Assembly: GCA_032622095.1 (NCBI GenBank)
Contig: CP136063.1
Coordinates: 26,972,987-27,036,986, forward strand
Origin: Siphonodentalium dalli
Taxonomy: Eukaryota > Mollusca > Scaphopoda > Gadilida > Siphonodentaliidae
Direction: 5' to 3'
Length of the DNA stretch: 64,000 nt
Position 1 is the stretch's first letter; each line of letters begins with the position of its first letter. The notes under the pieces are model-generated. The model worked only from the letters and a program-made list of their open reading frames with translations. It had not been told where the DNA came from and made no database searches. Both the position numbers and the translations under genes were made by a program. Positions 2,739-46,317 of this stretch are shown piece by piece.

Positions 2739-3230
2739 GGTTATGCTTCATCCTCTACCATGCTCCTTCATTAGCCAAAATTTTGCCCCCACCCAAACCC
2801 CAAAAATATAAGTCCGTCGCTGTTCAAAACTTTTTTTCGTATCAAGTTGCTAATGATTAACTGCATAGAAGATCTCAAATCTGGATACCTTGCATGCCAT
2901 AGCCAGACACAGGATATGAAATAAATCGAGTTTTGCGAACCATGGGCGACAACTCTGTGGCGAAAGCGCGGACATAAATTGTAATGCATTCACCCAATAG
3001 GGCATAATGAGGTGCACATATGGTCCATATTTGGAGTCTCTGCTGCTCATACTTTTCGAGATACAGCATCCCCATTTTTTCACAAAAGGGGAGATAACTC
3101 TGTAAATCAAGGGCGGACAATATCCTATATAGTCTATTGACCTAGAATTAGTATAGGTCTATATACGTACGAAATTCCAGATCTCTATATATTGTACTTC
3201 CAGAGATATAAGAGTTACAAAATTGCTAAG

Positions 3231-3254
3231 AATAATAATAATAATAATAATAAT
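3231..3254 (+). repeat. AAT microsatellite inside the 1398-bp unit (8 repeats)
   Basis: Eight AAT repeats lie 30 bp upstream of the unit's hairpin and recur in each copy I checked. The last copy of array 1 is cut within this tract, after five repeats (22803-22819). Confidence 0.85.
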
Positions 3255-3284
3255 ATTGGAAAAAAATAATAAATTGAATAACAA

Positions 3285-3314
3285 TATACTTCCATATTAA
3301 AATATGGAAGTATA
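3285..3314. repeat. Perfect 14-bp inverted repeat with 2-nt loop, once per 1398-bp unit
   Basis: TATACTTCCATATT, then AA, then AATATGGAAGTATA. The arms are exact reverse complements. The same position in the related 1723-bp unit has TATACTTCCTTGG, 5 nt and CCATGGAAGTATA (26517-26547, one mismatch). The single arm TATACTTCCATGG also occurs at 22847-22859 just outside array 1. Conservation of the pairing between diverged families suggests this is the most constrained part, but no function can be read from the sequence. Confidence 0.85.
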
Positions 3315-6300
3315 ATAAGGGAATCGCGCGAAATTGATTGGTATGTCGATATTATGGTTTATTGACATTTCTGTGTTCAGTTTGAACGTTCTGGTGTGAC
3401 CTCCACCCATGCCTCGAAATTTGGTGACGTGGATAGAAAAGTCGCCATATCTCGGCCAATTTTTGAGATATCTTGCTAATTTTTGCGTCATTGTGTTCGT
3501 ATTTGATGCCCCTATACTATTTACCAGGGTTTTGGTGAGGTATTGTGCCGATATTTTATAATGTAGGCCAATATGTATGTTGTTCTGTTCATACTTTTCG
3601 AATATCTCTCGCCTCTATCGACATAATACGGCAAGTAGGTAATCGTTTAGAAGTACTAGAAATTCCCCATCGAATGACACCAAACACGTGACGATTGGTT
3701 GAAGGAATTTAAATTCATAGTGCATTTTCTGTAAACTTGAAAAAAAAGGAAGTGGCCACAATTTCTACATTTCTCAACCGATTCATAAAATTCACTCATA
3801 ATGACACTCAGTACATCTTATAGATACTTCACAACAATTTTGGTTCAAATCAGCGACCAAAAAAAATTGACAAATTTTGACCCCCTCCCTAGTGCGGACA
3901 AATTTCATTGGATCTTGGTCAAAATTTCACCATTTCATCTTCTCTCTATAGATAAGACGCTCACATAAACCAAATCCAGTTTATATGCGTCGTCTAGGAG
4001 GAGATAGAGTCAAAAGCACTTTCTCCTCAATTGATGTATCAATACAATGTTCGATGGTCTGTAACTTGGACATTTCTCAACCGATTTACAAAATTCTTTC
4101 AGGAGGATCATTAGTACGTCCTATAGATACACGACAGTAAAAATATTTGAAATCATCGCAAAAAAAAAATTGCGAAAATTTTGCCCCCACCCAAACCCCA
4201 AAAATATAAGTCCGTCGCTGTTCAAAACTTTTTTTCGTATCAAGTTGCTAATGATTAACTGCATAGAAGATCTCAAATCTGGATACCTTGCATGCCATAG
4301 CCAGACACAGGATATGAAATAAATCGAGTTTTGCGAACCATGGGCGACAACTCTGTGGCGAAAGCGCGGACATAAATTGTAATGCATTCACCCAATAGGG
4401 CATAATGAGGTGCACATATGGTCCATATTTGGAGTCTCTGCTGCTCATACTTTTCGAGATACAGCATCCCCATTTTTTCACAAAAGGGGAGATAACTCTG
4501 TAAATCAAGGGCGGACAATATCCTATATAGTCTATTGACCTAGAATTAGTATAGGTCTATATACGTACGAAATTCCAGATCTCTATATATTGTACTTCCA
4601 GAGATATAAGAGTTACAAAATTGCTAAGAATAATAATAATAATAATAATAATATTGGAAAAAAATAATAAATTGAATAACAATATACTTCCATATTAAAA
4701 TATGGAAGTATAATAAGGGAATCGCGCGAAATTGATTGGTATGTCGATATTATGGTTTATTGACATTTCTGTGTTCAGTTTGAACGTTCTGGTGTGACCT
4801 CCACCCATGCCTCGAAATTTGGTGACGTGGATAGAAAAGTCGCCATATCTCGGCCAATTTTTGAGATATCTTGCTAATTTTTGCGTCATTGTGTTCGTAT
4901 TTGATGCCCCTATACTATTTACCAGGGTTTTGGTGAGGTATTGTGCCGATATTTTATAATGTAGGCCAATATGTATGTTGTTCTGTTCATACTTTTCGAA
5001 TATCTCTCGCCTCTATCGACATAATACGGCAAGTAGGTAATCGTTTAGAAGTACTAGAAATTCCCCATCGAATGACACCAAACACGTGACGATTGGTTGA
5101 AGGAATTTAAATTCATAGTGCATTTTCTGTAAACTTGAAAAAAAAGGAAGTGGCCACAATTTCTACATTTCTCAACCGATTCATAAAATTCACTCATAAT
5201 GACACTCAGTACATCTTATAGATACTTCACAACAATTTTGGTTCAAATCAGCGACCAAAAAAAATTGACAAATTTTGACCCCCTCCCTAGTGCGGACAAA
5301 TTTCATTGGATCTTGGTCAAAATTTCACCATTTCATCTTCTCTCTATAGATAAGACGCTCACATAAACCAAATCCAGTTTATATGCGTCGTCTAGGAGGA
5401 GATAGAGTCAAAAGCACTTTCTCCTCAATTGATGTATCAATACAATGTTCGATGGTCTGTAACTTGGACATTTCTCAACCGATTTACAAAATTCTTTCAG
5501 GAGGATCATTAGTACGTCCTATAGATACACGACAGTAAAAATATTTGAAATCATCGCAAAAAAAAAATTGCGAAAATTTTGCCCCCACCCAAACCCCAAA
5601 AATATAAGTCCGTCGCTGTTCAAAACTTTTTTTCGTATCAAGTTGCTAATGATTAACTGCATAGAAGATCTCAAATCTGGATACCTTGCATGCCATAGCC
5701 AGACACAGGATATGAAATAAATCGAGTTTTGCGAACCATGGGCGACAACTCTGTGGCGAAAGCGCGGACATAAATTGTAATGCATTCACCCAATAGGGCA
5801 TAATGAGGTGCACATATGGTCCATATTTGGAGTCTCTGCTGCTCATACTTTTCGAGATACAGCATCCCCATTTTTTCACAAAAGGGGAGATAACTCTGTA
5901 AATCAAGGGCGGACAATATCCTATATAGTCTATTGACCTAGAATTAGTATAGGTCTATATACGTACGAAATTCCAGATCTCTATATATTGTACTTCCAGA
6001 GATATAAGAGTTACAAAATTGCTAAGAATAATAATAATAATAATAATAATATTGGAAAAAAATAATAAATTGAATAACAATATACTTCCATATTAAAATA
6101 TGGAAGTATAATAAGGGAATCGCGCGAAATTGATTGGTATGTCGATATTATGGTTTATTGACATTTCTGTGTTCAGTTTGAACGTTCTGGTGTGACCTCC
6201 ACCCATGCCTCGAAATTTGGTGACGTGGATAGAAAAGTCGCCATATCTCGGCCAATTTTTGAGATATCTTGCTAATTTTTGCGTCATTGTGTTCGTATTT

Positions 6301-9300
6301 GATGCCCCTATACTATTTACCAGGGTTTTGGTGAGGTATTGTGCCGATATTTTATAATGTAGGCCAATATGTATGTTGTTCTGTTCATACTTTTCGAATA
6401 TCTCTCGCCTCTATCGACATAATACGGCAAGTAGGTAATCGTTTAGAAGTACTAGAAATTCCCCATCGAATGACACCAAACACGTGACGATTGGTTGAAG
6501 GAATTTAAATTCATAGTGCATTTTCTGTAAACTTGAAAAAAAAGGAAGTGGCCACAATTTCTACATTTCTCAACCGATTCATAAAATTCACTCATAATGA
6601 CACTCAGTACATCTTATAGATACTTCACAACAATTTTGGTTCAAATCAGCGACCAAAAAAAATTGACAAATTTTGACCCCCTCCCTAGTGCGGACAAATT
6701 TCATTGGATCTTGGTCAAAATTTCACCATTTCATCTTCTCTCTATAGATAAGACGCTCACATAAACCAAATCCAGTTTATATGCGTCGTCTAGGAGGAGA
6801 TAGAGTCAAAAGCACTTTCTCCTCAATTGATGTATCAATACAATGTTCGATGGTCTGTAACTTGGACATTTCTCAACCGATTTACAAAATTCTTTCAGGA
6901 GGATCATTAGTACGTCCTATAGATACACGACAGTAAAAATATTTGAAATCATCGCAAAAAAAAAATTGCGAAAATTTTGCCCCCACCCAAACCCCAAAAA
7001 TATAAGTCCGTCGCTGTTCAAAACTTTTTTTCGTATCAAGTTGCTAATGATTAACTGCATAGAAGATCTCAAATCTGGATACCTTGCATGCCATAGCCAG
7101 ACACAGGATATGAAATAAATCGAGTTTTGCGAACCATGGGCGACAACTCTGTGGCGAAAGCGCGGACATAAATTGTAATGCATTCACCCAATAGGGCATA
7201 ATGAGGTGCACATATGGTCCATATTTGGAGTCTCTGCTGCTCATACTTTTCGAGATACAGCATCCCCATTTTTTCACAAAAGGGGAGATAACTCTGTAAA
7301 TCAAGGGCGGACAATATCCTATATAGTCTATTGACCTAGAATTAGTATAGGTCTATATACGTACGAAATTCCAGATCTCTATATATTGTACTTCCAGAGA
7401 TATAAGAGTTACAAAATTGCTAAGAATAATAATAATAATAATAATAATATTGGAAAAAAATAATAAATTGAATAACAATATACTTCCATATTAAAATATG
7501 GAAGTATAATAAGGGAATCGCGCGAAATTGATTGGTATGTCGATATTATGGTTTATTGACATTTCTGTGTTCAGTTTGAACGTTCTGGTGTGACCTCCAC
7601 CCATGCCTCGAAATTTGGTGACGTGGATAGAAAAGTCGCCATATCTCGGCCAATTTTTGAGATATCTTGCTAATTTTTGCGTCATTGTGTTCGTATTTGA
7701 TGCCCCTATACTATTTACCAGGGTTTTGGTGAGGTATTGTGCCGATATTTTATAATGTAGGCCAATATGTATGTTGTTCTGTTCATACTTTTCGAATATC
7801 TCTCGCCTCTATCGACATAATACGGCAAGTAGGTAATCGTTTAGAAGTACTAGAAATTCCCCATCGAATGACACCAAACACGTGACGATTGGTTGAAGGA
7901 ATTTAAATTCATAGTGCATTTTCTGTAAACTTGAAAAAAAAGGAAGTGGCCACAATTTCTACATTTCTCAACCGATTCATAAAATTCACTCATAATGACA
8001 CTCAGTACATCTTATAGATACTTCACAACAATTTTGGTTCAAATCAGCGACCAAAAAAAATTGACAAATTTTGACCCCCTCCCTAGTGCGGACAAATTTC
8101 ATTGGATCTTGGTCAAAATTTCACCATTTCATCTTCTCTCTATAGATAAGACGCTCACATAAACCAAATCCAGTTTATATGCGTCGTCTAGGAGGAGATA
8201 GAGTCAAAAGCACTTTCTCCTCAATTGATGTATCAATACAATGTTCGATGGTCTGTAACTTGGACATTTCTCAACCGATTTACAAAATTCTTTCAGGAGG
8301 ATCATTAGTACGTCCTATAGATACACGACAGTAAAAATATTTGAAATCATCGCAAAAAAAAAATTGCGAAAATTTTGCCCCCACCCAAACCCCAAAAATA
8401 TAAGTCCGTCGCTGTTCAAAACTTTTTTTCGTATCAAGTTGCTAATGATTAACTGCATAGAAGATCTCAAATCTGGATACCTTGCATGCCATAGCCAGAC
8501 ACAGGATATGAAATAAATCGAGTTTTGCGAACCATGGGCGACAACTCTGTGGCGAAAGCGCGGACATAAATTGTAATGCATTCACCCAATAGGGCATAAT
8601 GAGGTGCACATATGGTCCATATTTGGAGTCTCTGCTGCTCATACTTTTCGAGATACAGCATCCCCATTTTTTCACAAAAGGGGAGATAACTCTGTAAATC
8701 AAGGGCGGACAATATCCTATATAGTCTATTGACCTAGAATTAGTATAGGTCTATATACGTACGAAATTCCAGATCTCTATATATTGTACTTCCAGAGATA
8801 TAAGAGTTACAAAATTGCTAAGAATAATAATAATAATAATAATAATATTGGAAAAAAATAATAAATTGAATAACAATATACTTCCATATTAAAATATGGA
8901 AGTATAATAAGGGAATCGCGCGAAATTGATTGGTATGTCGATATTATGGTTTATTGACATTTCTGTGTTCAGTTTGAACGTTCTGGTGTGACCTCCACCC
9001 ATGCCTCGAAATTTGGTGACGTGGATAGAAAAGTCGCCATATCTCGGCCAATTTTTGAGATATCTTGCTAATTTTTGCGTCATTGTGTTCGTATTTGATG
9101 CCCCTATACTATTTACCAGGGTTTTGGTGAGGTATTGTGCCGATATTTTATAATGTAGGCCAATATGTATGTTGTTCTGTTCATACTTTTCGAATATCTC
9201 TCGCCTCTATCGACATAATACGGCAAGTAGGTAATCGTTTAGAAGTACTAGAAATTCCCCATCGAATGACACCAAACACGTGACGATTGGTTGAAGGAAT

Positions 9301-11144
9301 TTAAATTCATAGTGCATTTTCTGTAAACTTGAAAAAAAAGGAAGTGGCCACAATTTCTACATTTCTCAACCGATTCATAAAATTCACTCATAATGACACT
9401 CAGTACATCTTATAGATACTTCACAACAATTTTGGTTCAAATCAGCGACCAAAAAAAATTGACAAATTTTGACCCCCTCCCTAGTGCGGACAAATTTCAT
9501 TGGATCTTGGTCAAAATTTCACCATTTCATCTTCTCTCTATAGATAAGACGCTCACATAAACCAAATCCAGTTTATATGCGTCGTCTAGGAGGAGATAGA
9601 GTCAAAAGCACTTTCTCCTCAATTGATGTATCAATACAATGTTCGATGGTCTGTAACTTGGACATTTCTCAACCGATTTACAAAATTCTTTCAGGAGGAT
9701 CATTAGTACGTCCTATAGATACACGACAGTAAAAATATTTGAAATCATCGCAAAAAAAAAATTGCGAAAATTTTGCCCCCACCCAAACCCCAAAAATATA
9801 AGTCCGTCGCTGTTCAAAACTTTTTTTCGTATCAAGTTGCTAATGATTAACTGCATAGAAGATCTCAAATCTGGATACCTTGCATGCCATAGCCAGACAC
9901 AGGATATGAAATAAATCGAGTTTTGCGAACCATGGGCGACAACTCTGTGGCGAAAGCGCGGACATAAATTGTAATGCATTCACCCAATAGGGCATAATGA
10001 GGTGCACATATGGTCCATATTTGGAGTCTCTGCTGCTCATACTTTTCGAGATACAGCATCCCCATTTTTTCACAAAAGGGGAGATAACTCTGTAAATCAA
10101 GGGCGGACAATATCCTATATAGTCTATTGACCTAGAATTAGTATAGGTCTATATACGTACGAAATTCCAGATCTCTATATATTGTACTTCCAGAGATATA
10201 AGAGTTACAAAATTGCTAAGAATAATAATAATAATAATAATAATATTGGAAAAAAATAATAAATTGAATAACAATATACTTCCATATTAAAATATGGAAG
10301 TATAATAAGGGAATCGCGCGAAATTGATTGGTATGTCGATATTATGGTTTATTGACATTTCTGTGTTCAGTTTGAACGTTCTGGTGTGACCTCCACCCAT
10401 GCCTCGAAATTTGGTGACGTGGATAGAAAAGTCGCCATATCTCGGCCAATTTTTGAGATATCTTGCTAATTTTTGCGTCATTGTGTTCGTATTTGATGCC
10501 CCTATACTATTTACCAGGGTTTTGGTGAGGTATTGTGCCGATATTTTATAATGTAGGCCAATATGTATGTTGTTCTGTTCATACTTTTCGAATATCTCTC
10601 GCCTCTATCGACATAATACGGCAAGTAGGTAATCGTTTAGAAGTACTAGAAATTCCCCATCGAATGACACCAAACACGTGACGATTGGTTGAAGGAATTT
10701 AAATTCATAGTGCATTTTCTGTAAACTTGAAAAAAAAGGAAGTGGCCACAATTTCTACATTTCTCAACCGATTCATAAAATTCACTCATAATGACACTCA
10801 GTACATCTTATAGATACTTCACAACAATTTTGGTTCAAATCAGCGACCAAAAAAAATTGACAAATTTTGACCCCCTCCCTAGTGCGGACAAATTTCATTG
10901 GATCTTGGTCAAAATTTCACCATTTCATCTTCTCTCTATAGATAAGACGCTCACATAAACCAAATCCAGTTTATATGCGTCGTCTAGGAGGAGATAGAGT
11001 CAAAAGCACTTTCTCCTCAATTGATGTATCAATACAATGTTCGATGGTCTGTAACTTGGACATTTCTCAACCGATTTACAAAATTCTTTCAGGAGGATCA
11101 TTAGTACGTCCTATAGATACACGACAGTAAAAATATTTGAAATC

Positions 11145-11226
11145 ATATCGCAAAAAAAAAATTGCGAAAATTTGCCCCCACCCAAACCCCAAAAATATAA
11201 GTCCGTCGCTGTTCAAAACTTTTTTC
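11145..11226 (+). repeat. Variant copy junction in array 1: three small indels summing to zero
   Basis: Relative to its neighbours this copy has an extra AT (ATCATATCG, about 11145), one T fewer in GCGAAAATTTGCCCC (about 11171) and one T fewer in the T-run before CGTATC (about 11220). The net change is zero, so the 1398-bp spacing is kept. The minus-strand 88-codon frame seen in neighbouring copies is lost here, which argues against it being coding. Confidence 0.75.
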
Positions 11227-14200
11227 GTATCAAGTTGCTAATGATTAACTGCATAGAAGATCTCAAATCTGGATACCTTGCATGCCATAGCCAGACACAG
11301 GATATGAAATAAATCGAGTTTTGCGAACCATGGGCGACAACTCTGTGGCGAAAGCGCGGACATAAATTGTAATGCATTCACCCAATAGGGCATAATGAGG
11401 TGCACATATGGTCCATATTTGGAGTCTCTGCTGCTCATACTTTTCGAGATACAGCATCCCCATTTTTTCACAAAAGGGGAGATAACTCTGTAAATCAAGG
11501 GCGGACAATATCCTATATAGTCTATTGACCTAGAATTAGTATAGGTCTATATACGTACGAAATTCCAGATCTCTATATATTGTACTTCCAGAGATATAAG
11601 AGTTACAAAATTGCTAAGAATAATAATAATAATAATAATAATATTGGAAAAAAATAATAAATTGAATAACAATATACTTCCATATTAAAATATGGAAGTA
11701 TAATAAGGGAATCGCGCGAAATTGATTGGTATGTCGATATTATGGTTTATTGACATTTCTGTGTTCAGTTTGAACGTTCTGGTGTGACCTCCACCCATGC
11801 CTCGAAATTTGGTGACGTGGATAGAAAAGTCGCCATATCTCGGCCAATTTTTGAGATATCTTGCTAATTTTTGCGTCATTGTGTTCGTATTTGATGCCCC
11901 TATACTATTTACCAGGGTTTTGGTGAGGTATTGTGCCGATATTTTATAATGTAGGCCAATATGTATGTTGTTCTGTTCATACTTTTCGAATATCTCTCGC
12001 CTCTATCGACATAATACGGCAAGTAGGTAATCGTTTAGAAGTACTAGAAATTCCCCATCGAATGACACCAAACACGTGACGATTGGTTGAAGGAATTTAA
12101 ATTCATAGTGCATTTTCTGTAAACTTGAAAAAAAAGGAAGTGGCCACAATTTCTACATTTCTCAACCGATTCATAAAATTCACTCATAATGACACTCAGT
12201 ACATCTTATAGATACTTCACAACAATTTTGGTTCAAATCAGCGACCAAAAAAAATTGACAAATTTTGACCCCCTCCCTAGTGCGGACAAATTTCATTGGA
12301 TCTTGGTCAAAATTTCACCATTTCATCTTCTCTCTATAGATAAGACGCTCACATAAACCAAATCCAGTTTATATGCGTCGTCTAGGAGGAGATAGAGTCA
12401 AAAGCACTTTCTCCTCAATTGATGTATCAATACAATGTTCGATGGTCTGTAACTTGGACATTTCTCAACCGATTTACAAAATTCTTTCAGGAGGATCATT
12501 AGTACGTCCTATAGATACACGACAGTAAAAATATTTGAAATCATCGCAAAAAAAAAATTGCGAAAATTTTGCCCCCACCCAAACCCCAAAAATATAAGTC
12601 CGTCGCTGTTCAAAACTTTTTTTCGTATCAAGTTGCTAATGATTAACTGCATAGAAGATCTCAAATCTGGATACCTTGCATGCCATAGCCAGACACAGGA
12701 TATGAAATAAATCGAGTTTTGCGAACCATGGGCGACAACTCTGTGGCGAAAGCGCGGACATAAATTGTAATGCATTCACCCAATAGGGCATAATGAGGTG
12801 CACATATGGTCCATATTTGGAGTCTCTGCTGCTCATACTTTTCGAGATACAGCATCCCCATTTTTTCACAAAAGGGGAGATAACTCTGTAAATCAAGGGC
12901 GGACAATATCCTATATAGTCTATTGACCTAGAATTAGTATAGGTCTATATACGTACGAAATTCCAGATCTCTATATATTGTACTTCCAGAGATATAAGAG
13001 TTACAAAATTGCTAAGAATAATAATAATAATAATAATAATATTGGAAAAAAATAATAAATTGAATAACAATATACTTCCATATTAAAATATGGAAGTATA
13101 ATAAGGGAATCGCGCGAAATTGATTGGTATGTCGATATTATGGTTTATTGACATTTCTGTGTTCAGTTTGAACGTTCTGGTGTGACCTCCACCCATGCCT
13201 CGAAATTTGGTGACGTGGATAGAAAAGTCGCCATATCTCGGCCAATTTTTGAGATATCTTGCTAATTTTTGCGTCATTGTGTTCGTATTTGATGCCCCTA
13301 TACTATTTACCAGGGTTTTGGTGAGGTATTGTGCCGATATTTTATAATGTAGGCCAATATGTATGTTGTTCTGTTCATACTTTTCGAATATCTCTCGCCT
13401 CTATCGACATAATACGGCAAGTAGGTAATCGTTTAGAAGTACTAGAAATTCCCCATCGAATGACACCAAACACGTGACGATTGGTTGAAGGAATTTAAAT
13501 TCATAGTGCATTTTCTGTAAACTTGAAAAAAAAGGAAGTGGCCACAATTTCTACATTTCTCAACCGATTCATAAAATTCACTCATAATGACACTCAGTAC
13601 ATCTTATAGATACTTCACAACAATTTTGGTTCAAATCAGCGACCAAAAAAAATTGACAAATTTTGACCCCCTCCCTAGTGCGGACAAATTTCATTGGATC
13701 TTGGTCAAAATTTCACCATTTCATCTTCTCTCTATAGATAAGACGCTCACATAAACCAAATCCAGTTTATATGCGTCGTCTAGGAGGAGATAGAGTCAAA
13801 AGCACTTTCTCCTCAATTGATGTATCAATACAATGTTCGATGGTCTGTAACTTGGACATTTCTCAACCGATTTACAAAATTCTTTCAGGAGGATCATTAG
13901 TACGTCCTATAGATACACGACAGTAAAAATATTTGAAATCATCGCAAAAAAAAAATTGCGAAAATTTTGCCCCCACCCAAACCCCAAAAATATAAGTCCG
14001 TCGCTGTTCAAAACTTTTTTTCGTATCAAGTTGCTAATGATTAACTGCATAGAAGATCTCAAATCTGGATACCTTGCATGCCATAGCCAGACACAGGATA
14101 TGAAATAAATCGAGTTTTGCGAACCATGGGCGACAACTCTGTGGCGAAAGCGCGGACATAAATTGTAATGCATTCACCCAATAGGGCATAATGAGGTGCA

Positions 14201-22819: not shown

Positions 22820-23224
22820 CTAGAGGTCAGATTCCATGGAATCAGATATACTTCCATGGTATCCCATCCCATCCCATGTGAGTGTTATGCGTATATGTGT
22901 ATTCCTCTTAATTCGAATTCATATTGGTGCTTAATGATCCGATGGTGGACTTGCATTGACATTTCTAAATATTAAATATACTCCAAAGGTTTATGTCATG
23001 ATGATTAATGACTGTCTAATGCATCATGGTCCTGACCAACTGAGTCACCATTCACCCAGCCAATTGGTTCATTTGTATTCAGTAGGGATACATGTTATGG
23101 CTAATTATAACCGCTCCCCTGGATGCCCAAATCCTGTTCAACGGTCACGACATTTGTTGTGTCTGATTATAGAGTAATCGGCTTGTATTTATATCAAAAG
23201 GGTGCAAATCATATTAATTTGAGT
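22820..23224. other. Right flank of array 1: palindrome plus orphan TATACTTCC arm, no gene
   Basis: Immediately after the AAT tract comes a 12-bp palindrome, ATTCCATGGAAT (22831-22842). TATACTTCCATGG (22847-22859) follows, then three ATCCC/CCATC repeats up to about 22877. The order 'AAT tract, then TATACTTCC arm' matches the satellite unit, so the flank may be a remnant of a diverged relative. The remaining ~340 bp shows no supported gene. Confidence 0.5.
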
Positions 23225-23580
23225 AATATATTTCACCCGTTAACAATGTTACGCGCTACCAGGATTAAACGGTCCACTCTAAAACTTATACAATCGTTCG
23301 AAAGATGCACCTGGATACTTCTGACCACGTCAACAAATTTTTGTCTCAAAGTTTTATTTTTTAAGTAATTTTCCACATTTGTTTGTGGTGGAATTTGTCA
23401 AGTCTGAACCCACCCGACGCAAGCTCTCCGCTGAGCATACATCTTGGAGGCGTACCTACAGTATACCGACGTACATGCTTCTGCATTAAACTAGATCTTT
23501 ATTAGCACGTTTGGATTTGGGGCTGCAATTAGGTTAGTGATAGACTACTTAAGTATAAATATTTATATTATACTAGCAGG
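23225..23580 (+). repeat. Copy of the ~360-bp flank repeat, right side of array 1
   Basis: This copy has the same order of blocks as 1540-2490: a control-like CTACCAGG-TAAAC start, GTCAACAAATTTTTGTCTC, GTGGTGGAATTTGTCAAGTCTGAACCC, a TCTCCGCTGAG block, ATGCTTCTGCATTA and GTTTGGATTTGG. It ends at the ATACTAGCAGGGT motif that opens the next repeat. Confidence 0.6.
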
Positions 23581-24873: not shown

Positions 24874-24973
24874 AGTCATTTCCAATTCAGCAGACATATA
24901 CTGACGGAAATAATTGAATGTCTATCAGCAGTATACTACGGTTTATAACAATATACAAATTGTTCTTACGAAA

Positions 24974-25049: not shown

Positions 25050-25054
25050 GTTAG

Positions 25055-28700: not shown

Positions 28701-29639
28701 TTTCATCTGATTCGGAGAAGAATAAAAAAAATGGTACCACGGACTACCCCTCCCCTGACCCACAATACTGAACCGACACTGGCAAAATTTGGTCCACCGC
28801 GTGCCCTCTTCAGTCCGTACGTATTTTCGTATCAGATGACATCCTATGTTCGATATCTTCGGAGGAGATGTGTTATCAAGCACATGGGTCCAAAATTGCA
28901 AAGTTTGAGGGTCCGCAATTATGTCAGTTTTCGATGGATTTTCGAAATTCTTTCAATTTCGAGATCGACTGATGTTGGAGATGTTATATTCCAAGTTTCA
29001 TCTGATTCGGAGAAGAATTAAAAATTGGTACAACGGACCACCCCTCCCCAGACCCACAATAATGAACAGACACTGGAAAAATTTGGCCCACCGCGTGCTC
29101 TCTTCCGTCCGCACACGTTGGCGTATAAGATGATATCCTATGTTCGATACCTTCGGAGGAGATGTGTTATCAAGCACATGGGCCCAAATTGCAAACTTTG
29201 AGGGCCCGTAACTCTTGCATTTCTTCTCGGATTTCAAAAATCCTTTCCGGTATGAGTTTGTTTTCGTTCGGGAAATACATAAACTTAAATATATGAATGT
29301 CAATCAAAATTTTATTTTTCAAAAAATTTGCCCCCCACCCCAGTGTCAAAATATATGTCCGACCCTGTCAAATTTTCCTTCTCTGACTAAACTGACAACG
29401 GTCAACACGACTATGAAAACCACATGCAGTTATCTGGAATGATACAAGAGGACAACAGAGTACAATCAAATAGAGGTTTGCCAACTATGGGCGGTAACTC
29501 CTCAGGGAAAGCGCGGACACAAGTTATGATGCCCGTGGGCAGTATGGCATATCGAGATGTGCATACAGTCCAATTTTCGATGCTCTGCTCCTTATAATTT
29601 CCGAGATAATCAAATAACATTTTTTCAGATAAAGGGAGA
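25705..29639 (+). repeat. Satellite array of a related 1723-bp unit (about 2.3 copies)
   Basis: CTTCGGAGGAGATGTGTTATC at 25705 recurs at 27428 and 29151 (period 1723). The unit shares a core with the 1398-bp unit: a TTTGCCCCCCACCCC tract, GGGCGGTAACTC...AAAGCGCGGACA, AGGGAGATAACTC...GCGGACAATAT, an AATAATAA tract, an inverted repeat on TATACTTCC, and GTGACC-CCACCC-TACCTCGAAATT. It also holds nested ~300-bp subrepeats marked by CATGGGCCCAAATT-like words (about 26866, 27159, 27456). Copies differ at several sites, so they are less homogeneous than the 1398-bp array. The third copy is broken off at 29639. Confidence 0.95.
26517..26547. repeat. Inverted repeat of the 1723-bp unit
   Basis: TATACTTCCTTGG (26517-26529), 5 nt, then CCATGGAAGTATA (26535-26547), with one mismatch in 13 pairs. 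It repeats one period later at 28240-28270. It occupies the same place as the perfect 14-bp inverted repeat of the 1398-bp unit. Confidence 0.8.
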
Positions 29640-32600: not shown

Positions 32601-35600
32601 GAGATACAGCATCCCCATTTTTTCACAAAAGGGGAGATAACTCTGTAAATCAAGGGCGGACAATATCCTATATAGTCTATTGACCTAGAATTAGTATAGG
32701 TCTATATACGTACGAAATTCCAGATCTCTATATATTGTACTTCCAGAGATATAAGAGTTACAAAATTGCTAAGAATAATAATAATAATAATAATAATATT
32801 GGAAAAAAATAATAAATTGAATAACAATATACTTCCATATTAAAATATGGAAGTATAATAAGGGAATCGCGCGAAATTGATTGGTATGTCGATATTATGG
32901 TTTATTGACATTTCTGTGTTCAGTTTGAACGTTCTGGTGTGACCTCCACCCATGCCTCGAAATTTGGTGACGTGGATAGAAAAGTCGCCATATCTCGGCC
33001 AATTTTTGAGATATCTTGCTAATTTTTGCGTCATTGTGTTCGTATTTGATGCCCCTATACTATTTACCAGGGTTTTGGTGAGGTATTGTGCCGATATTTT
33101 ATAATGTAGGCCAATATGTATGTTGTTCTGTTCATACTTTTCGAATATCTCTCGCCTCTATCGACATAATACGGCAAGTAGGTAATCGTTTAGAAGTACT
33201 AGAAATTCCCCATCGAATGACACCAAACACGTGACGATTGGTTGAAGGAATTTAAATTCATAGTGCATTTTCTGTAAACTTGAAAAAAAAGGAAGTGGCC
33301 ACAATTTCTACATTTCTCAACCGATTCATAAAATTCACTCATAATGACACTCAGTACATCTTATAGATACTTCACAACAATTTTGGTTCAAATCAGCGAC
33401 CAAAAAAAATTGACAAATTTTGACCCCCTCCCTAGTGCGGACAAATTTCATTGGATCTTGGTCAAAATTTCACCATTTCATCTTCTCTCTATAGATAAGA
33501 CGCTCACATAAACCAAATCCAGTTTATATGCGTCGTCTAGGAGGAGATAGAGTCAAAAGCACTTTCTCCTCAATTGATGTATCAATACAATGTTCGATGG
33601 TCTGTAACTTGGACATTTCTCAACCGATTTACAAAATTCTTTCAGGAGGATCATTAGTACGTCCTATAGATACACGACAGTAAAAATATTTGAAATCATC
33701 GCAAAAAAAAAATTGCGAAAATTTTGCCCCCACCCAAACCCCAAAAATATAAGTCCGTCGCTGTTCAAAACTTTTTTTCGTATCAAGTTGCTAATGATTA
33801 ACTGCATAGAAGATCTCAAATCTGGATACCTTGCATGCCATAGCCAGACACAGGATATGAAATAAATCGAGTTTTGCGAACCATGGGCGACAACTCTGTG
33901 GCGAAAGCGCGGACATAAATTGTAATGCATTCACCCAATAGGGCATAATGAGGTGCACATATGGTCCATATTTGGAGTCTCTGCTGCTCATACTTTTCGA
34001 GATACAGCATCCCCATTTTTTCACAAAAGGGGAGATAACTCTGTAAATCAAGGGCGGACAATATCCTATATAGTCTATTGACCTAGAATTAGTATAGGTC
34101 TATATACGTACGAAATTCCAGATCTCTATATATTGTACTTCCAGAGATATAAGAGTTACAAAATTGCTAAGAATAATAATAATAATAATAATAATATTGG
34201 AAAAAAATAATAAATTGAATAACAATATACTTCCATATTAAAATATGGAAGTATAATAAGGGAATCGCGCGAAATTGATTGGTATGTCGATATTATGGTT
34301 TATTGACATTTCTGTGTTCAGTTTGAACGTTCTGGTGTGACCTCCACCCATGCCTCGAAATTTGGTGACGTGGATAGAAAAGTCGCCATATCTCGGCCAA
34401 TTTTTGAGATATCTTGCTAATTTTTGCGTCATTGTGTTCGTATTTGATGCCCCTATACTATTTACCAGGGTTTTGGTGAGGTATTGTGCCGATATTTTAT
34501 AATGTAGGCCAATATGTATGTTGTTCTGTTCATACTTTTCGAATATCTCTCGCCTCTATCGACATAATACGGCAAGTAGGTAATCGTTTAGAAGTACTAG
34601 AAATTCCCCATCGAATGACACCAAACACGTGACGATTGGTTGAAGGAATTTAAATTCATAGTGCATTTTCTGTAAACTTGAAAAAAAAGGAAGTGGCCAC
34701 AATTTCTACATTTCTCAACCGATTCATAAAATTCACTCATAATGACACTCAGTACATCTTATAGATACTTCACAACAATTTTGGTTCAAATCAGCGACCA
34801 AAAAAAATTGACAAATTTTGACCCCCTCCCTAGTGCGGACAAATTTCATTGGATCTTGGTCAAAATTTCACCATTTCATCTTCTCTCTATAGATAAGACG
34901 CTCACATAAACCAAATCCAGTTTATATGCGTCGTCTAGGAGGAGATAGAGTCAAAAGCACTTTCTCCTCAATTGATGTATCAATACAATGTTCGATGGTC
35001 TGTAACTTGGACATTTCTCAACCGATTTACAAAATTCTTTCAGGAGGATCATTAGTACGTCCTATAGATACACGACAGTAAAAATATTTGAAATCATCGC
35101 AAAAAAAAAATTGCGAAAATTTTGCCCCCACCCAAACCCCAAAAATATAAGTCCGTCGCTGTTCAAAACTTTTTTTCGTATCAAGTTGCTAATGATTAAC
35201 TGCATAGAAGATCTCAAATCTGGATACCTTGCATGCCATAGCCAGACACAGGATATGAAATAAATCGAGTTTTGCGAACCATGGGCGACAACTCTGTGGC
35301 GAAAGCGCGGACATAAATTGTAATGCATTCACCCAATAGGGCATAATGAGGTGCACATATGGTCCATATTTGGAGTCTCTGCTGCTCATACTTTTCGAGA
35401 TACAGCATCCCCATTTTTTCACAAAAGGGGAGATAACTCTGTAAATCAAGGGCGGACAATATCCTATATAGTCTATTGACCTAGAATTAGTATAGGTCTA
35501 TATACGTACGAAATTCCAGATCTCTATATATTGTACTTCCAGAGATATAAGAGTTACAAAATTGCTAAGAATAATAATAATAATAATAATAATATTGGAA

Positions 35601-38600
35601 AAAAATAATAAATTGAATAACAATATACTTCCATATTAAAATATGGAAGTATAATAAGGGAATCGCGCGAAATTGATTGGTATGTCGATATTATGGTTTA
35701 TTGACATTTCTGTGTTCAGTTTGAACGTTCTGGTGTGACCTCCACCCATGCCTCGAAATTTGGTGACGTGGATAGAAAAGTCGCCATATCTCGGCCAATT
35801 TTTGAGATATCTTGCTAATTTTTGCGTCATTGTGTTCGTATTTGATGCCCCTATACTATTTACCAGGGTTTTGGTGAGGTATTGTGCCGATATTTTATAA
35901 TGTAGGCCAATATGTATGTTGTTCTGTTCATACTTTTCGAATATCTCTCGCCTCTATCGACATAATACGGCAAGTAGGTAATCGTTTAGAAGTACTAGAA
36001 ATTCCCCATCGAATGACACCAAACACGTGACGATTGGTTGAAGGAATTTAAATTCATAGTGCATTTTCTGTAAACTTGAAAAAAAAGGAAGTGGCCACAA
36101 TTTCTACATTTCTCAACCGATTCATAAAATTCACTCATAATGACACTCAGTACATCTTATAGATACTTCACAACAATTTTGGTTCAAATCAGCGACCAAA
36201 AAAAATTGACAAATTTTGACCCCCTCCCTAGTGCGGACAAATTTCATTGGATCTTGGTCAAAATTTCACCATTTCATCTTCTCTCTATAGATAAGACGCT
36301 CACATAAACCAAATCCAGTTTATATGCGTCGTCTAGGAGGAGATAGAGTCAAAAGCACTTTCTCCTCAATTGATGTATCAATACAATGTTCGATGGTCTG
36401 TAACTTGGACATTTCTCAACCGATTTACAAAATTCTTTCAGGAGGATCATTAGTACGTCCTATAGATACACGACAGTAAAAATATTTGAAATCATCGCAA
36501 AAAAAAAATTGCGAAAATTTTGCCCCCACCCAAACCCCAAAAATATAAGTCCGTCGCTGTTCAAAACTTTTTTTCGTATCAAGTTGCTAATGATTAACTG
36601 CATAGAAGATCTCAAATCTGGATACCTTGCATGCCATAGCCAGACACAGGATATGAAATAAATCGAGTTTTGCGAACCATGGGCGACAACTCTGTGGCGA
36701 AAGCGCGGACATAAATTGTAATGCATTCACCCAATAGGGCATAATGAGGTGCACATATGGTCCATATTTGGAGTCTCTGCTGCTCATACTTTTCGAGATA
36801 CAGCATCCCCATTTTTTCACAAAAGGGGAGATAACTCTGTAAATCAAGGGCGGACAATATCCTATATAGTCTATTGACCTAGAATTAGTATAGGTCTATA
36901 TACGTACGAAATTCCAGATCTCTATATATTGTACTTCCAGAGATATAAGAGTTACAAAATTGCTAAGAATAATAATAATAATAATAATAATATTGGAAAA
37001 AAATAATAAATTGAATAACAATATACTTCCATATTAAAATATGGAAGTATAATAAGGGAATCGCGCGAAATTGATTGGTATGTCGATATTATGGTTTATT
37101 GACATTTCTGTGTTCAGTTTGAACGTTCTGGTGTGACCTCCACCCATGCCTCGAAATTTGGTGACGTGGATAGAAAAGTCGCCATATCTCGGCCAATTTT
37201 TGAGATATCTTGCTAATTTTTGCGTCATTGTGTTCGTATTTGATGCCCCTATACTATTTACCAGGGTTTTGGTGAGGTATTGTGCCGATATTTTATAATG
37301 TAGGCCAATATGTATGTTGTTCTGTTCATACTTTTCGAATATCTCTCGCCTCTATCGACATAATACGGCAAGTAGGTAATCGTTTAGAAGTACTAGAAAT
37401 TCCCCATCGAATGACACCAAACACGTGACGATTGGTTGAAGGAATTTAAATTCATAGTGCATTTTCTGTAAACTTGAAAAAAAAGGAAGTGGCCACAATT
37501 TCTACATTTCTCAACCGATTCATAAAATTCACTCATAATGACACTCAGTACATCTTATAGATACTTCACAACAATTTTGGTTCAAATCAGCGACCAAAAA
37601 AAATTGACAAATTTTGACCCCCTCCCTAGTGCGGACAAATTTCATTGGATCTTGGTCAAAATTTCACCATTTCATCTTCTCTCTATAGATAAGACGCTCA
37701 CATAAACCAAATCCAGTTTATATGCGTCGTCTAGGAGGAGATAGAGTCAAAAGCACTTTCTCCTCAATTGATGTATCAATACAATGTTCGATGGTCTGTA
37801 ACTTGGACATTTCTCAACCGATTTACAAAATTCTTTCAGGAGGATCATTAGTACGTCCTATAGATACACGACAGTAAAAATATTTGAAATCATCGCAAAA
37901 AAAAAATTGCGAAAATTTTGCCCCCACCCAAACCCCAAAAATATAAGTCCGTCGCTGTTCAAAACTTTTTTTCGTATCAAGTTGCTAATGATTAACTGCA
38001 TAGAAGATCTCAAATCTGGATACCTTGCATGCCATAGCCAGACACAGGATATGAAATAAATCGAGTTTTGCGAACCATGGGCGACAACTCTGTGGCGAAA
38101 GCGCGGACATAAATTGTAATGCATTCACCCAATAGGGCATAATGAGGTGCACATATGGTCCATATTTGGAGTCTCTGCTGCTCATACTTTTCGAGATACA
38201 GCATCCCCATTTTTTCACAAAAGGGGAGATAACTCTGTAAATCAAGGGCGGACAATATCCTATATAGTCTATTGACCTAGAATTAGTATAGGTCTATATA
38301 CGTACGAAATTCCAGATCTCTATATATTGTACTTCCAGAGATATAAGAGTTACAAAATTGCTAAGAATAATAATAATAATAATAATAATATTGGAAAAAA
38401 ATAATAAATTGAATAACAATATACTTCCATATTAAAATATGGAAGTATAATAAGGGAATCGCGCGAAATTGATTGGTATGTCGATATTATGGTTTATTGA
38501 CATTTCTGTGTTCAGTTTGAACGTTCTGGTGTGACCTCCACCCATGCCTCGAAATTTGGTGACGTGGATAGAAAAGTCGCCATATCTCGGCCAATTTTTG

Positions 38601-41600
38601 AGATATCTTGCTAATTTTTGCGTCATTGTGTTCGTATTTGATGCCCCTATACTATTTACCAGGGTTTTGGTGAGGTATTGTGCCGATATTTTATAATGTA
38701 GGCCAATATGTATGTTGTTCTGTTCATACTTTTCGAATATCTCTCGCCTCTATCGACATAATACGGCAAGTAGGTAATCGTTTAGAAGTACTAGAAATTC
38801 CCCATCGAATGACACCAAACACGTGACGATTGGTTGAAGGAATTTAAATTCATAGTGCATTTTCTGTAAACTTGAAAAAAAAGGAAGTGGCCACAATTTC
38901 TACATTTCTCAACCGATTCATAAAATTCACTCATAATGACACTCAGTACATCTTATAGATACTTCACAACAATTTTGGTTCAAATCAGCGACCAAAAAAA
39001 ATTGACAAATTTTGACCCCCTCCCTAGTGCGGACAAATTTCATTGGATCTTGGTCAAAATTTCACCATTTCATCTTCTCTCTATAGATAAGACGCTCACA
39101 TAAACCAAATCCAGTTTATATGCGTCGTCTAGGAGGAGATAGAGTCAAAAGCACTTTCTCCTCAATTGATGTATCAATACAATGTTCGATGGTCTGTAAC
39201 TTGGACATTTCTCAACCGATTTACAAAATTCTTTCAGGAGGATCATTAGTACGTCCTATAGATACACGACAGTAAAAATATTTGAAATCATCGCAAAAAA
39301 AAAATTGCGAAAATTTTGCCCCCACCCAAACCCCAAAAATATAAGTCCGTCGCTGTTCAAAACTTTTTTTCGTATCAAGTTGCTAATGATTAACTGCATA
39401 GAAGATCTCAAATCTGGATACCTTGCATGCCATAGCCAGACACAGGATATGAAATAAATCGAGTTTTGCGAACCATGGGCGACAACTCTGTGGCGAAAGC
39501 GCGGACATAAATTGTAATGCATTCACCCAATAGGGCATAATGAGGTGCACATATGGTCCATATTTGGAGTCTCTGCTGCTCATACTTTTCGAGATACAGC
39601 ATCCCCATTTTTTCACAAAAGGGGAGATAACTCTGTAAATCAAGGGCGGACAATATCCTATATAGTCTATTGACCTAGAATTAGTATAGGTCTATATACG
39701 TACGAAATTCCAGATCTCTATATATTGTACTTCCAGAGATATAAGAGTTACAAAATTGCTAAGAATAATAATAATAATAATAATAATATTGGAAAAAAAT
39801 AATAAATTGAATAACAATATACTTCCATATTAAAATATGGAAGTATAATAAGGGAATCGCGCGAAATTGATTGGTATGTCGATATTATGGTTTATTGACA
39901 TTTCTGTGTTCAGTTTGAACGTTCTGGTGTGACCTCCACCCATGCCTCGAAATTTGGTGACGTGGATAGAAAAGTCGCCATATCTCGGCCAATTTTTGAG
40001 ATATCTTGCTAATTTTTGCGTCATTGTGTTCGTATTTGATGCCCCTATACTATTTACCAGGGTTTTGGTGAGGTATTGTGCCGATATTTTATAATGTAGG
40101 CCAATATGTATGTTGTTCTGTTCATACTTTTCGAATATCTCTCGCCTCTATCGACATAATACGGCAAGTAGGTAATCGTTTAGAAGTACTAGAAATTCCC
40201 CATCGAATGACACCAAACACGTGACGATTGGTTGAAGGAATTTAAATTCATAGTGCATTTTCTGTAAACTTGAAAAAAAAGGAAGTGGCCACAATTTCTA
40301 CATTTCTCAACCGATTCATAAAATTCACTCATAATGACACTCAGTACATCTTATAGATACTTCACAACAATTTTGGTTCAAATCAGCGACCAAAAAAAAT
40401 TGACAAATTTTGACCCCCTCCCTAGTGCGGACAAATTTCATTGGATCTTGGTCAAAATTTCACCATTTCATCTTCTCTCTATAGATAAGACGCTCACATA
40501 AACCAAATCCAGTTTATATGCGTCGTCTAGGAGGAGATAGAGTCAAAAGCACTTTCTCCTCAATTGATGTATCAATACAATGTTCGATGGTCTGTAACTT
40601 GGACATTTCTCAACCGATTTACAAAATTCTTTCAGGAGGATCATTAGTACGTCCTATAGATACACGACAGTAAAAATATTTGAAATCATCGCAAAAAAAA
40701 AATTGCGAAAATTTTGCCCCCACCCAAACCCCAAAAATATAAGTCCGTCGCTGTTCAAAACTTTTTTTCGTATCAAGTTGCTAATGATTAACTGCATAGA
40801 AGATCTCAAATCTGGATACCTTGCATGCCATAGCCAGACACAGGATATGAAATAAATCGAGTTTTGCGAACCATGGGCGACAACTCTGTGGCGAAAGCGC
40901 GGACATAAATTGTAATGCATTCACCCAATAGGGCATAATGAGGTGCACATATGGTCCATATTTGGAGTCTCTGCTGCTCATACTTTTCGAGATACAGCAT
41001 CCCCATTTTTTCACAAAAGGGGAGATAACTCTGTAAATCAAGGGCGGACAATATCCTATATAGTCTATTGACCTAGAATTAGTATAGGTCTATATACGTA
41101 CGAAATTCCAGATCTCTATATATTGTACTTCCAGAGATATAAGAGTTACAAAATTGCTAAGAATAATAATAATAATAATAATAATATTGGAAAAAAATAA
41201 TAAATTGAATAACAATATACTTCCATATTAAAATATGGAAGTATAATAAGGGAATCGCGCGAAATTGATTGGTATGTCGATATTATGGTTTATTGACATT
41301 TCTGTGTTCAGTTTGAACGTTCTGGTGTGACCTCCACCCATGCCTCGAAATTTGGTGACGTGGATAGAAAAGTCGCCATATCTCGGCCAATTTTTGAGAT
41401 ATCTTGCTAATTTTTGCGTCATTGTGTTCGTATTTGATGCCCCTATACTATTTACCAGGGTTTTGGTGAGGTATTGTGCCGATATTTTATAATGTAGGCC
41501 AATATGTATGTTGTTCTGTTCATACTTTTCGAATATCTCTCGCCTCTATCGACATAATACGGCAAGTAGGTAATCGTTTAGAAGTACTAGAAATTCCCCA

Positions 41601-44600
41601 TCGAATGACACCAAACACGTGACGATTGGTTGAAGGAATTTAAATTCATAGTGCATTTTCTGTAAACTTGAAAAAAAAGGAAGTGGCCACAATTTCTACA
41701 TTTCTCAACCGATTCATAAAATTCACTCATAATGACACTCAGTACATCTTATAGATACTTCACAACAATTTTGGTTCAAATCAGCGACCAAAAAAAATTG
41801 ACAAATTTTGACCCCCTCCCTAGTGCGGACAAATTTCATTGGATCTTGGTCAAAATTTCACCATTTCATCTTCTCTCTATAGATAAGACGCTCACATAAA
41901 CCAAATCCAGTTTATATGCGTCGTCTAGGAGGAGATAGAGTCAAAAGCACTTTCTCCTCAATTGATGTATCAATACAATGTTCGATGGTCTGTAACTTGG
42001 ACATTTCTCAACCGATTTACAAAATTCTTTCAGGAGGATCATTAGTACGTCCTATAGATACACGACAGTAAAAATATTTGAAATCATCGCAAAAAAAAAA
42101 TTGCGAAAATTTTGCCCCCACCCAAACCCCAAAAATATAAGTCCGTCGCTGTTCAAAACTTTTTTTCGTATCAAGTTGCTAATGATTAACTGCATAGAAG
42201 ATCTCAAATCTGGATACCTTGCATGCCATAGCCAGACACAGGATATGAAATAAATCGAGTTTTGCGAACCATGGGCGACAACTCTGTGGCGAAAGCGCGG
42301 ACATAAATTGTAATGCATTCACCCAATAGGGCATAATGAGGTGCACATATGGTCCATATTTGGAGTCTCTGCTGCTCATACTTTTCGAGATACAGCATCC
42401 CCATTTTTTCACAAAAGGGGAGATAACTCTGTAAATCAAGGGCGGACAATATCCTATATAGTCTATTGACCTAGAATTAGTATAGGTCTATATACGTACG
42501 AAATTCCAGATCTCTATATATTGTACTTCCAGAGATATAAGAGTTACAAAATTGCTAAGAATAATAATAATAATAATAATAATATTGGAAAAAAATAATA
42601 AATTGAATAACAATATACTTCCATATTAAAATATGGAAGTATAATAAGGGAATCGCGCGAAATTGATTGGTATGTCGATATTATGGTTTATTGACATTTC
42701 TGTGTTCAGTTTGAACGTTCTGGTGTGACCTCCACCCATGCCTCGAAATTTGGTGACGTGGATAGAAAAGTCGCCATATCTCGGCCAATTTTTGAGATAT
42801 CTTGCTAATTTTTGCGTCATTGTGTTCGTATTTGATGCCCCTATACTATTTACCAGGGTTTTGGTGAGGTATTGTGCCGATATTTTATAATGTAGGCCAA
42901 TATGTATGTTGTTCTGTTCATACTTTTCGAATATCTCTCGCCTCTATCGACATAATACGGCAAGTAGGTAATCGTTTAGAAGTACTAGAAATTCCCCATC
43001 GAATGACACCAAACACGTGACGATTGGTTGAAGGAATTTAAATTCATAGTGCATTTTCTGTAAACTTGAAAAAAAAGGAAGTGGCCACAATTTCTACATT
43101 TCTCAACCGATTCATAAAATTCACTCATAATGACACTCAGTACATCTTATAGATACTTCACAACAATTTTGGTTCAAATCAGCGACCAAAAAAAATTGAC
43201 AAATTTTGACCCCCTCCCTAGTGCGGACAAATTTCATTGGATCTTGGTCAAAATTTCACCATTTCATCTTCTCTCTATAGATAAGACGCTCACATAAACC
43301 AAATCCAGTTTATATGCGTCGTCTAGGAGGAGATAGAGTCAAAAGCACTTTCTCCTCAATTGATGTATCAATACAATGTTCGATGGTCTGTAACTTGGAC
43401 ATTTCTCAACCGATTTACAAAATTCTTTCAGGAGGATCATTAGTACGTCCTATAGATACACGACAGTAAAAATATTTGAAATCATCGCAAAAAAAAAATT
43501 GCGAAAATTTTGCCCCCACCCAAACCCCAAAAATATAAGTCCGTCGCTGTTCAAAACTTTTTTTCGTATCAAGTTGCTAATGATTAACTGCATAGAAGAT
43601 CTCAAATCTGGATACCTTGCATGCCATAGCCAGACACAGGATATGAAATAAATCGAGTTTTGCGAACCATGGGCGACAACTCTGTGGCGAAAGCGCGGAC
43701 ATAAATTGTAATGCATTCACCCAATAGGGCATAATGAGGTGCACATATGGTCCATATTTGGAGTCTCTGCTGCTCATACTTTTCGAGATACAGCATCCCC
43801 ATTTTTTCACAAAAGGGGAGATAACTCTGTAAATCAAGGGCGGACAATATCCTATATAGTCTATTGACCTAGAATTAGTATAGGTCTATATACGTACGAA
43901 ATTCCAGATCTCTATATATTGTACTTCCAGAGATATAAGAGTTACAAAATTGCTAAGAATAATAATAATAATAATAATAATATTGGAAAAAAATAATAAA
44001 TTGAATAACAATATACTTCCATATTAAAATATGGAAGTATAATAAGGGAATCGCGCGAAATTGATTGGTATGTCGATATTATGGTTTATTGACATTTCTG
44101 TGTTCAGTTTGAACGTTCTGGTGTGACCTCCACCCATGCCTCGAAATTTGGTGACGTGGATAGAAAAGTCGCCATATCTCGGCCAATTTTTGAGATATCT
44201 TGCTAATTTTTGCGTCATTGTGTTCGTATTTGATGCCCCTATACTATTTACCAGGGTTTTGGTGAGGTATTGTGCCGATATTTTATAATGTAGGCCAATA
44301 TGTATGTTGTTCTGTTCATACTTTTCGAATATCTCTCGCCTCTATCGACATAATACGGCAAGTAGGTAATCGTTTAGAAGTACTAGAAATTCCCCATCGA
44401 ATGACACCAAACACGTGACGATTGGTTGAAGGAATTTAAATTCATAGTGCATTTTCTGTAAACTTGAAAAAAAAGGAAGTGGCCACAATTTCTACATTTC
44501 TCAACCGATTCATAAAATTCACTCATAATGACACTCAGTACATCTTATAGATACTTCACAACAATTTTGGTTCAAATCAGCGACCAAAAAAAATTGACAA

Positions 44601-46317
44601 ATTTTGACCCCCTCCCTAGTGCGGACAAATTTCATTGGATCTTGGTCAAAATTTCACCATTTCATCTTCTCTCTATAGATAAGACGCTCACATAAACCAA
44701 ATCCAGTTTATATGCGTCGTCTAGGAGGAGATAGAGTCAAAAGCACTTTCTCCTCAATTGATGTATCAATACAATGTTCGATGGTCTGTAACTTGGACAT
44801 TTCTCAACCGATTTACAAAATTCTTTCAGGAGGATCATTAGTACGTCCTATAGATACACGACAGTAAAAATATTTGAAATCATCGCAAAAAAAAAATTGC
44901 GAAAATTTTGCCCCCACCCAAACCCCAAAAATATAAGTCCGTCGCTGTTCAAAACTTTTTTTCGTATCAAGTTGCTAATGATTAACTGCATAGAAGATCT
45001 CAAATCTGGATACCTTGCATGCCATAGCCAGACACAGGATATGAAATAAATCGAGTTTTGCGAACCATGGGCGACAACTCTGTGGCGAAAGCGCGGACAT
45101 AAATTGTAATGCATTCACCCAATAGGGCATAATGAGGTGCACATATGGTCCATATTTGGAGTCTCTGCTGCTCATACTTTTCGAGATACAGCATCCCCAT
45201 TTTTTCACAAAAGGGGAGATAACTCTGTAAATCAAGGGCGGACAATATCCTATATAGTCTATTGACCTAGAATTAGTATAGGTCTATATACGTACGAAAT
45301 TCCAGATCTCTATATATTGTACTTCCAGAGATATAAGAGTTACAAAATTGCTAAGAATAATAATAATAATAATAATAATATTGGAAAAAAATAATAAATT
45401 GAATAACAATATACTTCCATATTAAAATATGGAAGTATAATAAGGGAATCGCGCGAAATTGATTGGTATGTCGATATTATGGTTTATTGACATTTCTGTG
45501 TTCAGTTTGAACGTTCTGGTGTGACCTCCACCCATGCCTCGAAATTTGGTGACGTGGATAGAAAAGTCGCCATATCTCGGCCAATTTTTGAGATATCTTG
45601 CTAATTTTTGCGTCATTGTGTTCGTATTTGATGCCCCTATACTATTTACCAGGGTTTTGGTGAGGTATTGTGCCGATATTTTATAATGTAGGCCAATATG
45701 TATGTTGTTCTGTTCATACTTTTCGAATATCTCTCGCCTCTATCGACATAATACGGCAAGTAGGTAATCGTTTAGAAGTACTAGAAATTCCCCATCGAAT
45801 GACACCAAACACGTGACGATTGGTTGAAGGAATTTAAATTCATAGTGCATTTTCTGTAAACTTGAAAAAAAAGGAAGTGGCCACAATTTCTACATTTCTC
45901 AACCGATTCATAAAATTCACTCATAATGACACTCAGTACATCTTATAGATACTTCACAACAATTTTGGTTCAAATCAGCGACCAAAAAAAATTGACAAAT
46001 TTTGACCCCCTCCCTAGTGCGGACAAATTTCATTGGATCTTGGTCAAAATTTCACCATTTCATCTTCTCTCTATAGATAAGACGCTCACATAAACCAAAT
46101 CCAGTTTATATGCGTCGTCTAGGAGGAGATAGAGTCAAAAGCACTTTCTCCTCAATTGATGTATCAATACAATGTTCGATGGTCTGTAACTTGGACATTT
46201 CTCAACCGATTTACAAAATTCTTTCAGGAGGATCATTAGTACGTCCTATAGATACACGACAGTAAAAATATTTGAAATCATCGCAAAAAAAAAATTGCGA
46301 AAATTTTGCCCCCACCC
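29640..46317 (+). repeat. Satellite array 2: 1398-bp unit, about 11.9 copies, running into a gap
   Basis: The unit begins abruptly at its internal position 117 (CATGCCATAGCCAGACAC), right after a broken 1723-bp copy, and repeats every 1398 bp to the N gap. Its consensus looks identical to array 1, in the same orientation. Eleven full spacings can be counted from the recurring blocks (for example 30868 to 44848 in ten steps). The array end is not seen, so the real copy number may be larger. Confidence 0.97.

Follow-up and report, generated by a model that had tools for sequence, protein, structure and literature searches.

A window of 64,000 nucleotides from the scaphopod mollusc Siphonodentalium dalli (contig CP136063.1 of assembly GCA_032622095.1, positions 26,972,987 to 27,036,986 of the forward strand) contains two arrays of a tandem repeat whose unit is 1398 bp long (Table 1; all positions below are those of the window). 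On the evidence of this 64-kb window, the arrays most likely belong to a genuine long-unit (complex) satellite that was recently amplified and homogenised and that is larger than its assembled part. The period of 1398 bp is exact and the two arrays together comprise 36,721 bp, or 26.3 units arranged head to tail and in the same orientation, in agreement with a preliminary description of this DNA that had proposed a nearly uniform satellite over about 37 kb. Copy-against-copy comparison, recommended in that description as a check, revealed no ordinary divergence: cut in one common register, the arrays give 25 full copies, 22 of them identical to one another and three each unique (three partial pieces were excluded from the count). 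The three differing spots noticed earlier by eye in array 1 were recovered, two of them being substitutions and the third a cluster of insertions and deletions (indels), and array 2, as claimed, matched the majority unit throughout, with 0 differences. The two substitutions correspond to a rate of 0.005% over 36,721 bp. Units compared between arrays 1 and 2 differ at 0 of 1398 positions, and the arrays are separated by 6.8 kb, which holds a second satellite with a period of 1723 bp. Chance does not account for this pattern of near-identity.

The second satellite provides an internal reference for the region. Between copies 1 and 2 of the 1723-bp unit there are 9 differences in 1723 positions, and 12 of the 2212 positions compared in the array differ. 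Because this array keeps an ordinary low divergence, the region has not simply been flattened. The contrast between 0 of 1398 positions in one satellite and 9 of 1723 in its neighbour, together with the 22 identical copies, supports the earlier suggestion of recent amplification or strong homogenisation. A different explanation is that the uniformity is largely an artefact of assembly or polishing, in which pooled reads turned differing copies into a single consensus, leaving an arbitrary copy number. A perfectly periodic 16.7 kb is difficult to assemble, array 2 terminates at a gap of 100 N, and indels in T runs are found among the few variants. On the other hand, three distinct variant copies persist in array 1 and the 1723-bp array retains its differences, and we consider such an artefact unlikely. 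Two of these considerations nevertheless weigh against a genuine, recently homogenised satellite: the indel cluster lies partly at T runs (T4>T3 and T7>T6), which are a usual site of residual sequencing error, and polishing may have removed some of the real variants. It did not erase everything, because array 1 and the 1723-bp array both still contain variants.

Table 1. Positions of the repeat arrays, their internal parts and variants, and the assembly gap
Feature	Position	Strand	Remarks
Array 1, 1398-bp unit	2777..22819	+	20,043 bp, 14.34 units
TAA microsatellite, first 1398-bp unit	3227..3255	+	
Hairpin, first 1398-bp unit	3285..3314	+	14-nt perfect arms, 2 nt between them
Block of higher similarity to the 1723-bp unit	3396..3434	+	87% over 39 bp, unit positions 620-658; partner 26658-26694
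Sub-repeat of about 146 bp, copy 1, 1398-bp unit	3743..3863	+	Weak
Sub-repeat of about 146 bp, copy 2, 1398-bp unit	4029..4168	+	Weak; lag 303 bp
Indel cluster	11147..11219 (shifted register)	+	Array 1; +AT, -T, -T, net length zero, from alignment
Substitution C>A	21212	+	Array 1, 1.6 kb from its right edge
Substitution A>C	22076	+	Array 1, 0.7 kb from its right edge
Spacer, array 1 to 1723-bp array	22820..25704		Not clearly similar to either unit
Second satellite, period 1723 bp	25705..29639	+	2.28 copies, 99.46% alike; adjoins array 2
Hairpin, 1723-bp unit	26517..26547	+	Counterpart of the hairpin of the 1398-bp unit
Sub-repeats of about 146 bp, 1723-bp unit	26711..27301	+	Three; a fourth at 25726-25866
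Array 2, 1398-bp unit	29640..46317	+	16,678 bp, 11.93 units; ends at the 100-N gap
Gap of 100 N	46318..46417		46317 is the last base ahead of the Ns and the end of array 2

Composite anatomy of the unit and its 1723-bp relative

The 1398-bp unit is composite and carries two weak sub-repeats of about 146 bp, a TAA microsatellite and a hairpin. The hairpin had been described beforehand as a foldback in the unit, and the prediction held: its perfect arms fold as single-stranded DNA with a z-score of -7.1, none of 200 shuffles (0/200) being as stable, and a 9-mer of the arm is present in every array unit that spans it, one copy each, which makes 26 in total. The sub-repeats are less evident. In the first round of the profile search they scored 31.6 and 5.9 bits, against at most 1.7 bits in 20 shuffles, and values of 79.7 and 64.7 bits were obtained only once the profile had been retrained on them. 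The 1723-bp unit contains the same kinds of part. Its hairpin folds better than all 200 shuffles (z-score -5.6), a TAA-like stretch is present in both units, and the sub-repeats are four instead of two, their lags being about 157 and 294 bp; a doublet distinct from these has a lag of 145 bp. Comparison of the two hairpins showed that the outer nine pairs are the same, whereas of the five inner pairs two have changed on both sides and one is now a mismatch.

The 1723-bp unit is a diverged relative of the 1398-bp unit, about 64-70% alike, with the similar stretches in the same order and the hairpin present in both. When the 1398-bp unit was compared in 60-bp windows, 18 of the 47 windows exceeded the best shuffled score (17) against the 1723-bp unit. 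These windows span the region from unit position 1261, through position 1, to about 690, the signal being weaker at about 31-120, 331-390, 541-600 and 1321-1380, and none of those starting at positions 661-1231 rose above the best shuffled window. The windowed test was used in place of a forced global ring alignment of the two units, which looked even but flatters the similarity. The region of the hairpin (82% over 51 bp) and the block at unit positions 620-658 are more alike than the rest, which, from two sequences, may be a hint of constraint. Repair that makes a palindrome match itself is another possible cause.

This anatomy raises the question of whether the unit constitutes a complete non-autonomous transposable element, for example one of the Helentron type, that came to lie in tandem as it would by rolling-circle replication. 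Such an explanation concerns the origin of the unit and is compatible with a satellite that has been amplified recently. The oyster elements known as Cg_HINE (Helentron non-autonomous elements, HINEs) are reported to contain internal tandem repeats, a microsatellite and a palindrome (PMC7492417), the same kinds of part as the 1398-bp unit, with the qualification that the sub-repeats of the latter are weak before the profile is retrained. Also in favour, the number of sub-repeats varies between the two units, and the 1723-bp unit has 49 inverted repeats of 11 bp against 12 to 24 in 8 shuffles, a count that the sub-repeats inflate. Likewise, the oyster satellites CgiSat04 and CgiSat07, of about 2 kb, are labelled DNA/Helitron and as resembling Repbase transposable elements, and CgiSat48 (about 2056 bp) is described as found mainly in the form of isolated monomers that carry Helitron boxes at each end (PMC8268682). 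Further features expected of HINEs are subterminal inverted repeats of 11-12 bp and dispersed copies that have constant ends and are inserted at TT. However, the 1398-bp unit has 21 inverted repeats of 11 bp, seven of which belong to the hairpin, and 8 shuffles gave 6 to 28. With these numbers no subterminal pair stands out from chance in the 1398-bp unit, in contrast to Cg_HINE. An element end was likewise not seen, because the similarity between the two units runs on across the position where array 1 begins, and for this reason the unit is not classed as a HINE. No dispersed single copy is known, both units being known from the window only. Overall, it seems rather unlikely that the unit is a whole element of this kind.

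Probable homogenisation of the arrays and the assembly gap

The genuine satellite favoured here would have arisen by the very recent head-to-tail amplification of one composite template unit, whose copies would then have been held uniform through unequal exchange or gene conversion, possibly aided by excised circles. The identity across the spacer means that arrays 1 and 2 either derive from a single recent source or continue to exchange sequence, and they probably represent two visible parts of one larger domain. Under a model of unequal exchange, variants are left near the edges of an array. Both substitutions are located no more than 1.6 kb from the right edge of array 1, which fits this model, the observation being post hoc and comprising two events; the indel cluster is the sole variant spot away from the edges. 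A possible effect of the hairpin is to promote breakage or template switching, and the satellite is probably without a sequence-specific function.

Another route to the same arrangement is that both arrays were seeded by the reintegration of multimeric circular DNA. One sequence flanks the 6.8-kb spacer on both sides, and the three array edges that do not lie at the gap correspond to unit positions 1, 471 and 117 and therefore share no common unit boundary. Further, the junction at 29639/29640 between the 1723-bp array and array 2, the only one with both partners known, is out of register and shows no microhomology. A rearrangement, for example inside one array, followed by unequal exchange yields the same picture, and reintegration is a possibility to which we assign a low probability. 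With regard to the edges, array 2 stops at the gap at unit position 18 and the indel cluster spans unit positions from about 1379 to 55. The apparent clustering of these two points with the left edge of array 1 was set aside; it is not rare for three of seven such points to fall inside a span of about 70 out of 1398 positions (about 0.26 by a rough estimate).

The 11.93 units of array 2 are probably a minimum, because the array runs directly into the gap; no similarity to the units was found in the sequence beyond it. The longest stretch free of variants measures 9,993 bp in array 1 compared with 16,678 bp, that is, the entire array, in array 2. Stretches of 9,993 bp can be threaded by somewhat longer reads, and the contig stops after 16,678 bp without a variant; we therefore infer a limit of read length, with the reads running out inside array 2 and thereby causing the contig break. 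Array 2 would thus be truncated where reads could not cross a long variant-free stretch, and the array is probably longer than assembled. In a study of a bird genome, long or homogeneous repeats, satellites among them, were reported among the main causes of contig breaks (PMC7757076). For the present assembly, the observation suggests that the length of at least one array is a lower bound.

A long homogeneous array beside an assembly gap is also what a centromeric or telomere-proximal satellite could look like, and both locations had been put forward in the preliminary description. Motif searches provided no positive evidence for either of them, and there was none for the role as circular DNA that the description had also raised. 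No run of telomere repeats was found in the window, and a CENP-B-box-like site with at most one mismatch was absent from the 1398-bp unit and present once in the 1723-bp unit. Many centromeres lack CENP-B boxes. A role of this kind appears very improbable. A broader scenario, which we regard as improbable, is that the 1398- and 1723-bp units are two generations of one lineage of rolling-circle elements that multiplies as arrays of whole units and combines a hairpin-bearing core with a variable number of nucleosome-length sub-repeats. The newer version would be displacing the older one as it sweeps through the locus, and the window would show a satellite replacement in progress.

Coding potential, database searches and other features of the window

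The window contains nine stop-to-stop frames of at least 120 amino acids, none of which lies wholly inside an array of the 1398-bp unit. The frame 29411-29905 crosses the junction of the 1723-bp array with array 2, and the frame 46266-46925 begins within array 2 and continues across the Ns. Judged on frames of this length, the 1398-bp unit is apparently non-coding. Six of the nine frames were compared with Pfam and yielded 0 families. In addition, Rfam returned no family in the window at the gathering threshold and none, including the hammerhead ribozyme motif, in two 1398-bp units searched on both strands with expectation values (E) of up to 1. A match to IRES_APC within 22820-29700 was discarded, as it reached 21.9 bits, far below the cut-off of 50. 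A search for transfer RNA genes found none. The periodicity of A/T dinucleotides between 8 and 14 bp did not exceed that of shuffled sequences, 79.5% and 13% of 200 shuffles being at least as strong as the best period of the two units.

Four sequence patterns that are present in the window had 0 matches, three of them in a collection of virus contigs, and the hairpin pattern also had 0 matches in a collection of genome contigs; these results mean little, given that the collections comprise viruses and prokaryotes. A text search of the literature for a mollusc satellite of 1398 bp or 1.4 kb found no paper, which does not exclude that one exists. A 172-bp tandem repeat of Drosophila virilis (PMC3833285), a paper found through a shared word, was considered as a relative of the sub-repeats and rejected. 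The consensus of this repeat reached 1.9 bits against a sub-repeat profile built from the 1723-bp unit only (9 of 500 shuffles as good) and 7.4 bits against the retrained profile (1 of 500), and its direct alignments to the two units were matched by 15 and 4 of 200 shuffles. The similarity is not convincingly above that of shuffles, and the shared word is no exact stretch of the units in the window.

Outside the arrays, the spacer at 22820-25704 displayed one weak 50-bp match to the 1723-bp unit (E 0.004). Segments 1868-2477, in the left flank of array 1, and 23326-24252, in the spacer, are related dispersed repeats that are 67-72.5% alike. The sequence after the gap begins inside an open frame (46419-46922) that, like the frame 50672-51079, carries cysteine/histidine patterns and has no Pfam match; we take these patterns to resemble the C-terminal part of reverse transcriptases of the long interspersed nuclear element (LINE) type. 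An open frame of 280 codons at 49514-50353 has no Pfam family and has 20 database relatives, the best of them 64% identical. Further downstream, the region 51066-54086 contains a direct repeat (51338-52648 and 52779-54086, 94.5% alike, spacing 1441 bp), pieces of which recur at 56045-56354, and 56664-57686 holds about 2.5 copies of a diverged tandem repeat of about 290 bp, with relatives at 58123-58312. The end of the window, 61000-64000, shows a strong skew of G over C (0.36 and 0.43 in two 2-kb windows) and G runs of 31 and 17 bases.

Comparison with known satellites

The length of the unit had been considered unusual for molluscs, a view that finds little support in the published oyster satellites, which include units of 1.4-2.1 kb and longer. 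Monomers reported for Crassostrea gigas range from 21 to 3287 bp (PMC11136912; PMC8268682), and the long ones among them include CgiSat34 (1423 bp), CgiSat41 (1736 bp), CgiSat04 (2077 bp) and CgiSat07 (2091 bp) (PMC8268682). Among five other oysters, the maximum monomer length is given as 2421 to 16,346 bp, the latter being, in its authors' description, a large genome fragment that is repeated (PMC11136912). The 1398-bp unit is on the long side, because most oyster satellites are reported to be shorter than 200 bp (PMC11136912), yet it is not exceptional, since kilobase-scale monomers have been published.

CgiSat01 (Cg170/HindIII) resembles the arrays described here in forming an array of tens of kb (about 40 kb) with an assembly gap, and differs from them in its monomers of 164-166 bp and in being mostly associated with Helitron-type elements, according to the description of that satellite (PMC8268682). 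The closest parallels, when length and array size instead of sequence are compared, are CgiSat04 and CgiSat07, which belong to the same class of 1.4-2.1 kb units. These satellites are reported as mostly standalone, with at most 19 and 13 monomers per array (PMC8268682), against 14.3 and 11.9 units in arrays 1 and 2, and what sets them apart is the Repbase label mentioned above. By itself, the satellite of S. dalli reveals no new kind of element. It provides a clean example in which a young long-unit satellite lies next to a more diverged relative, a configuration that is useful for measuring the speed at which arrays turn over.

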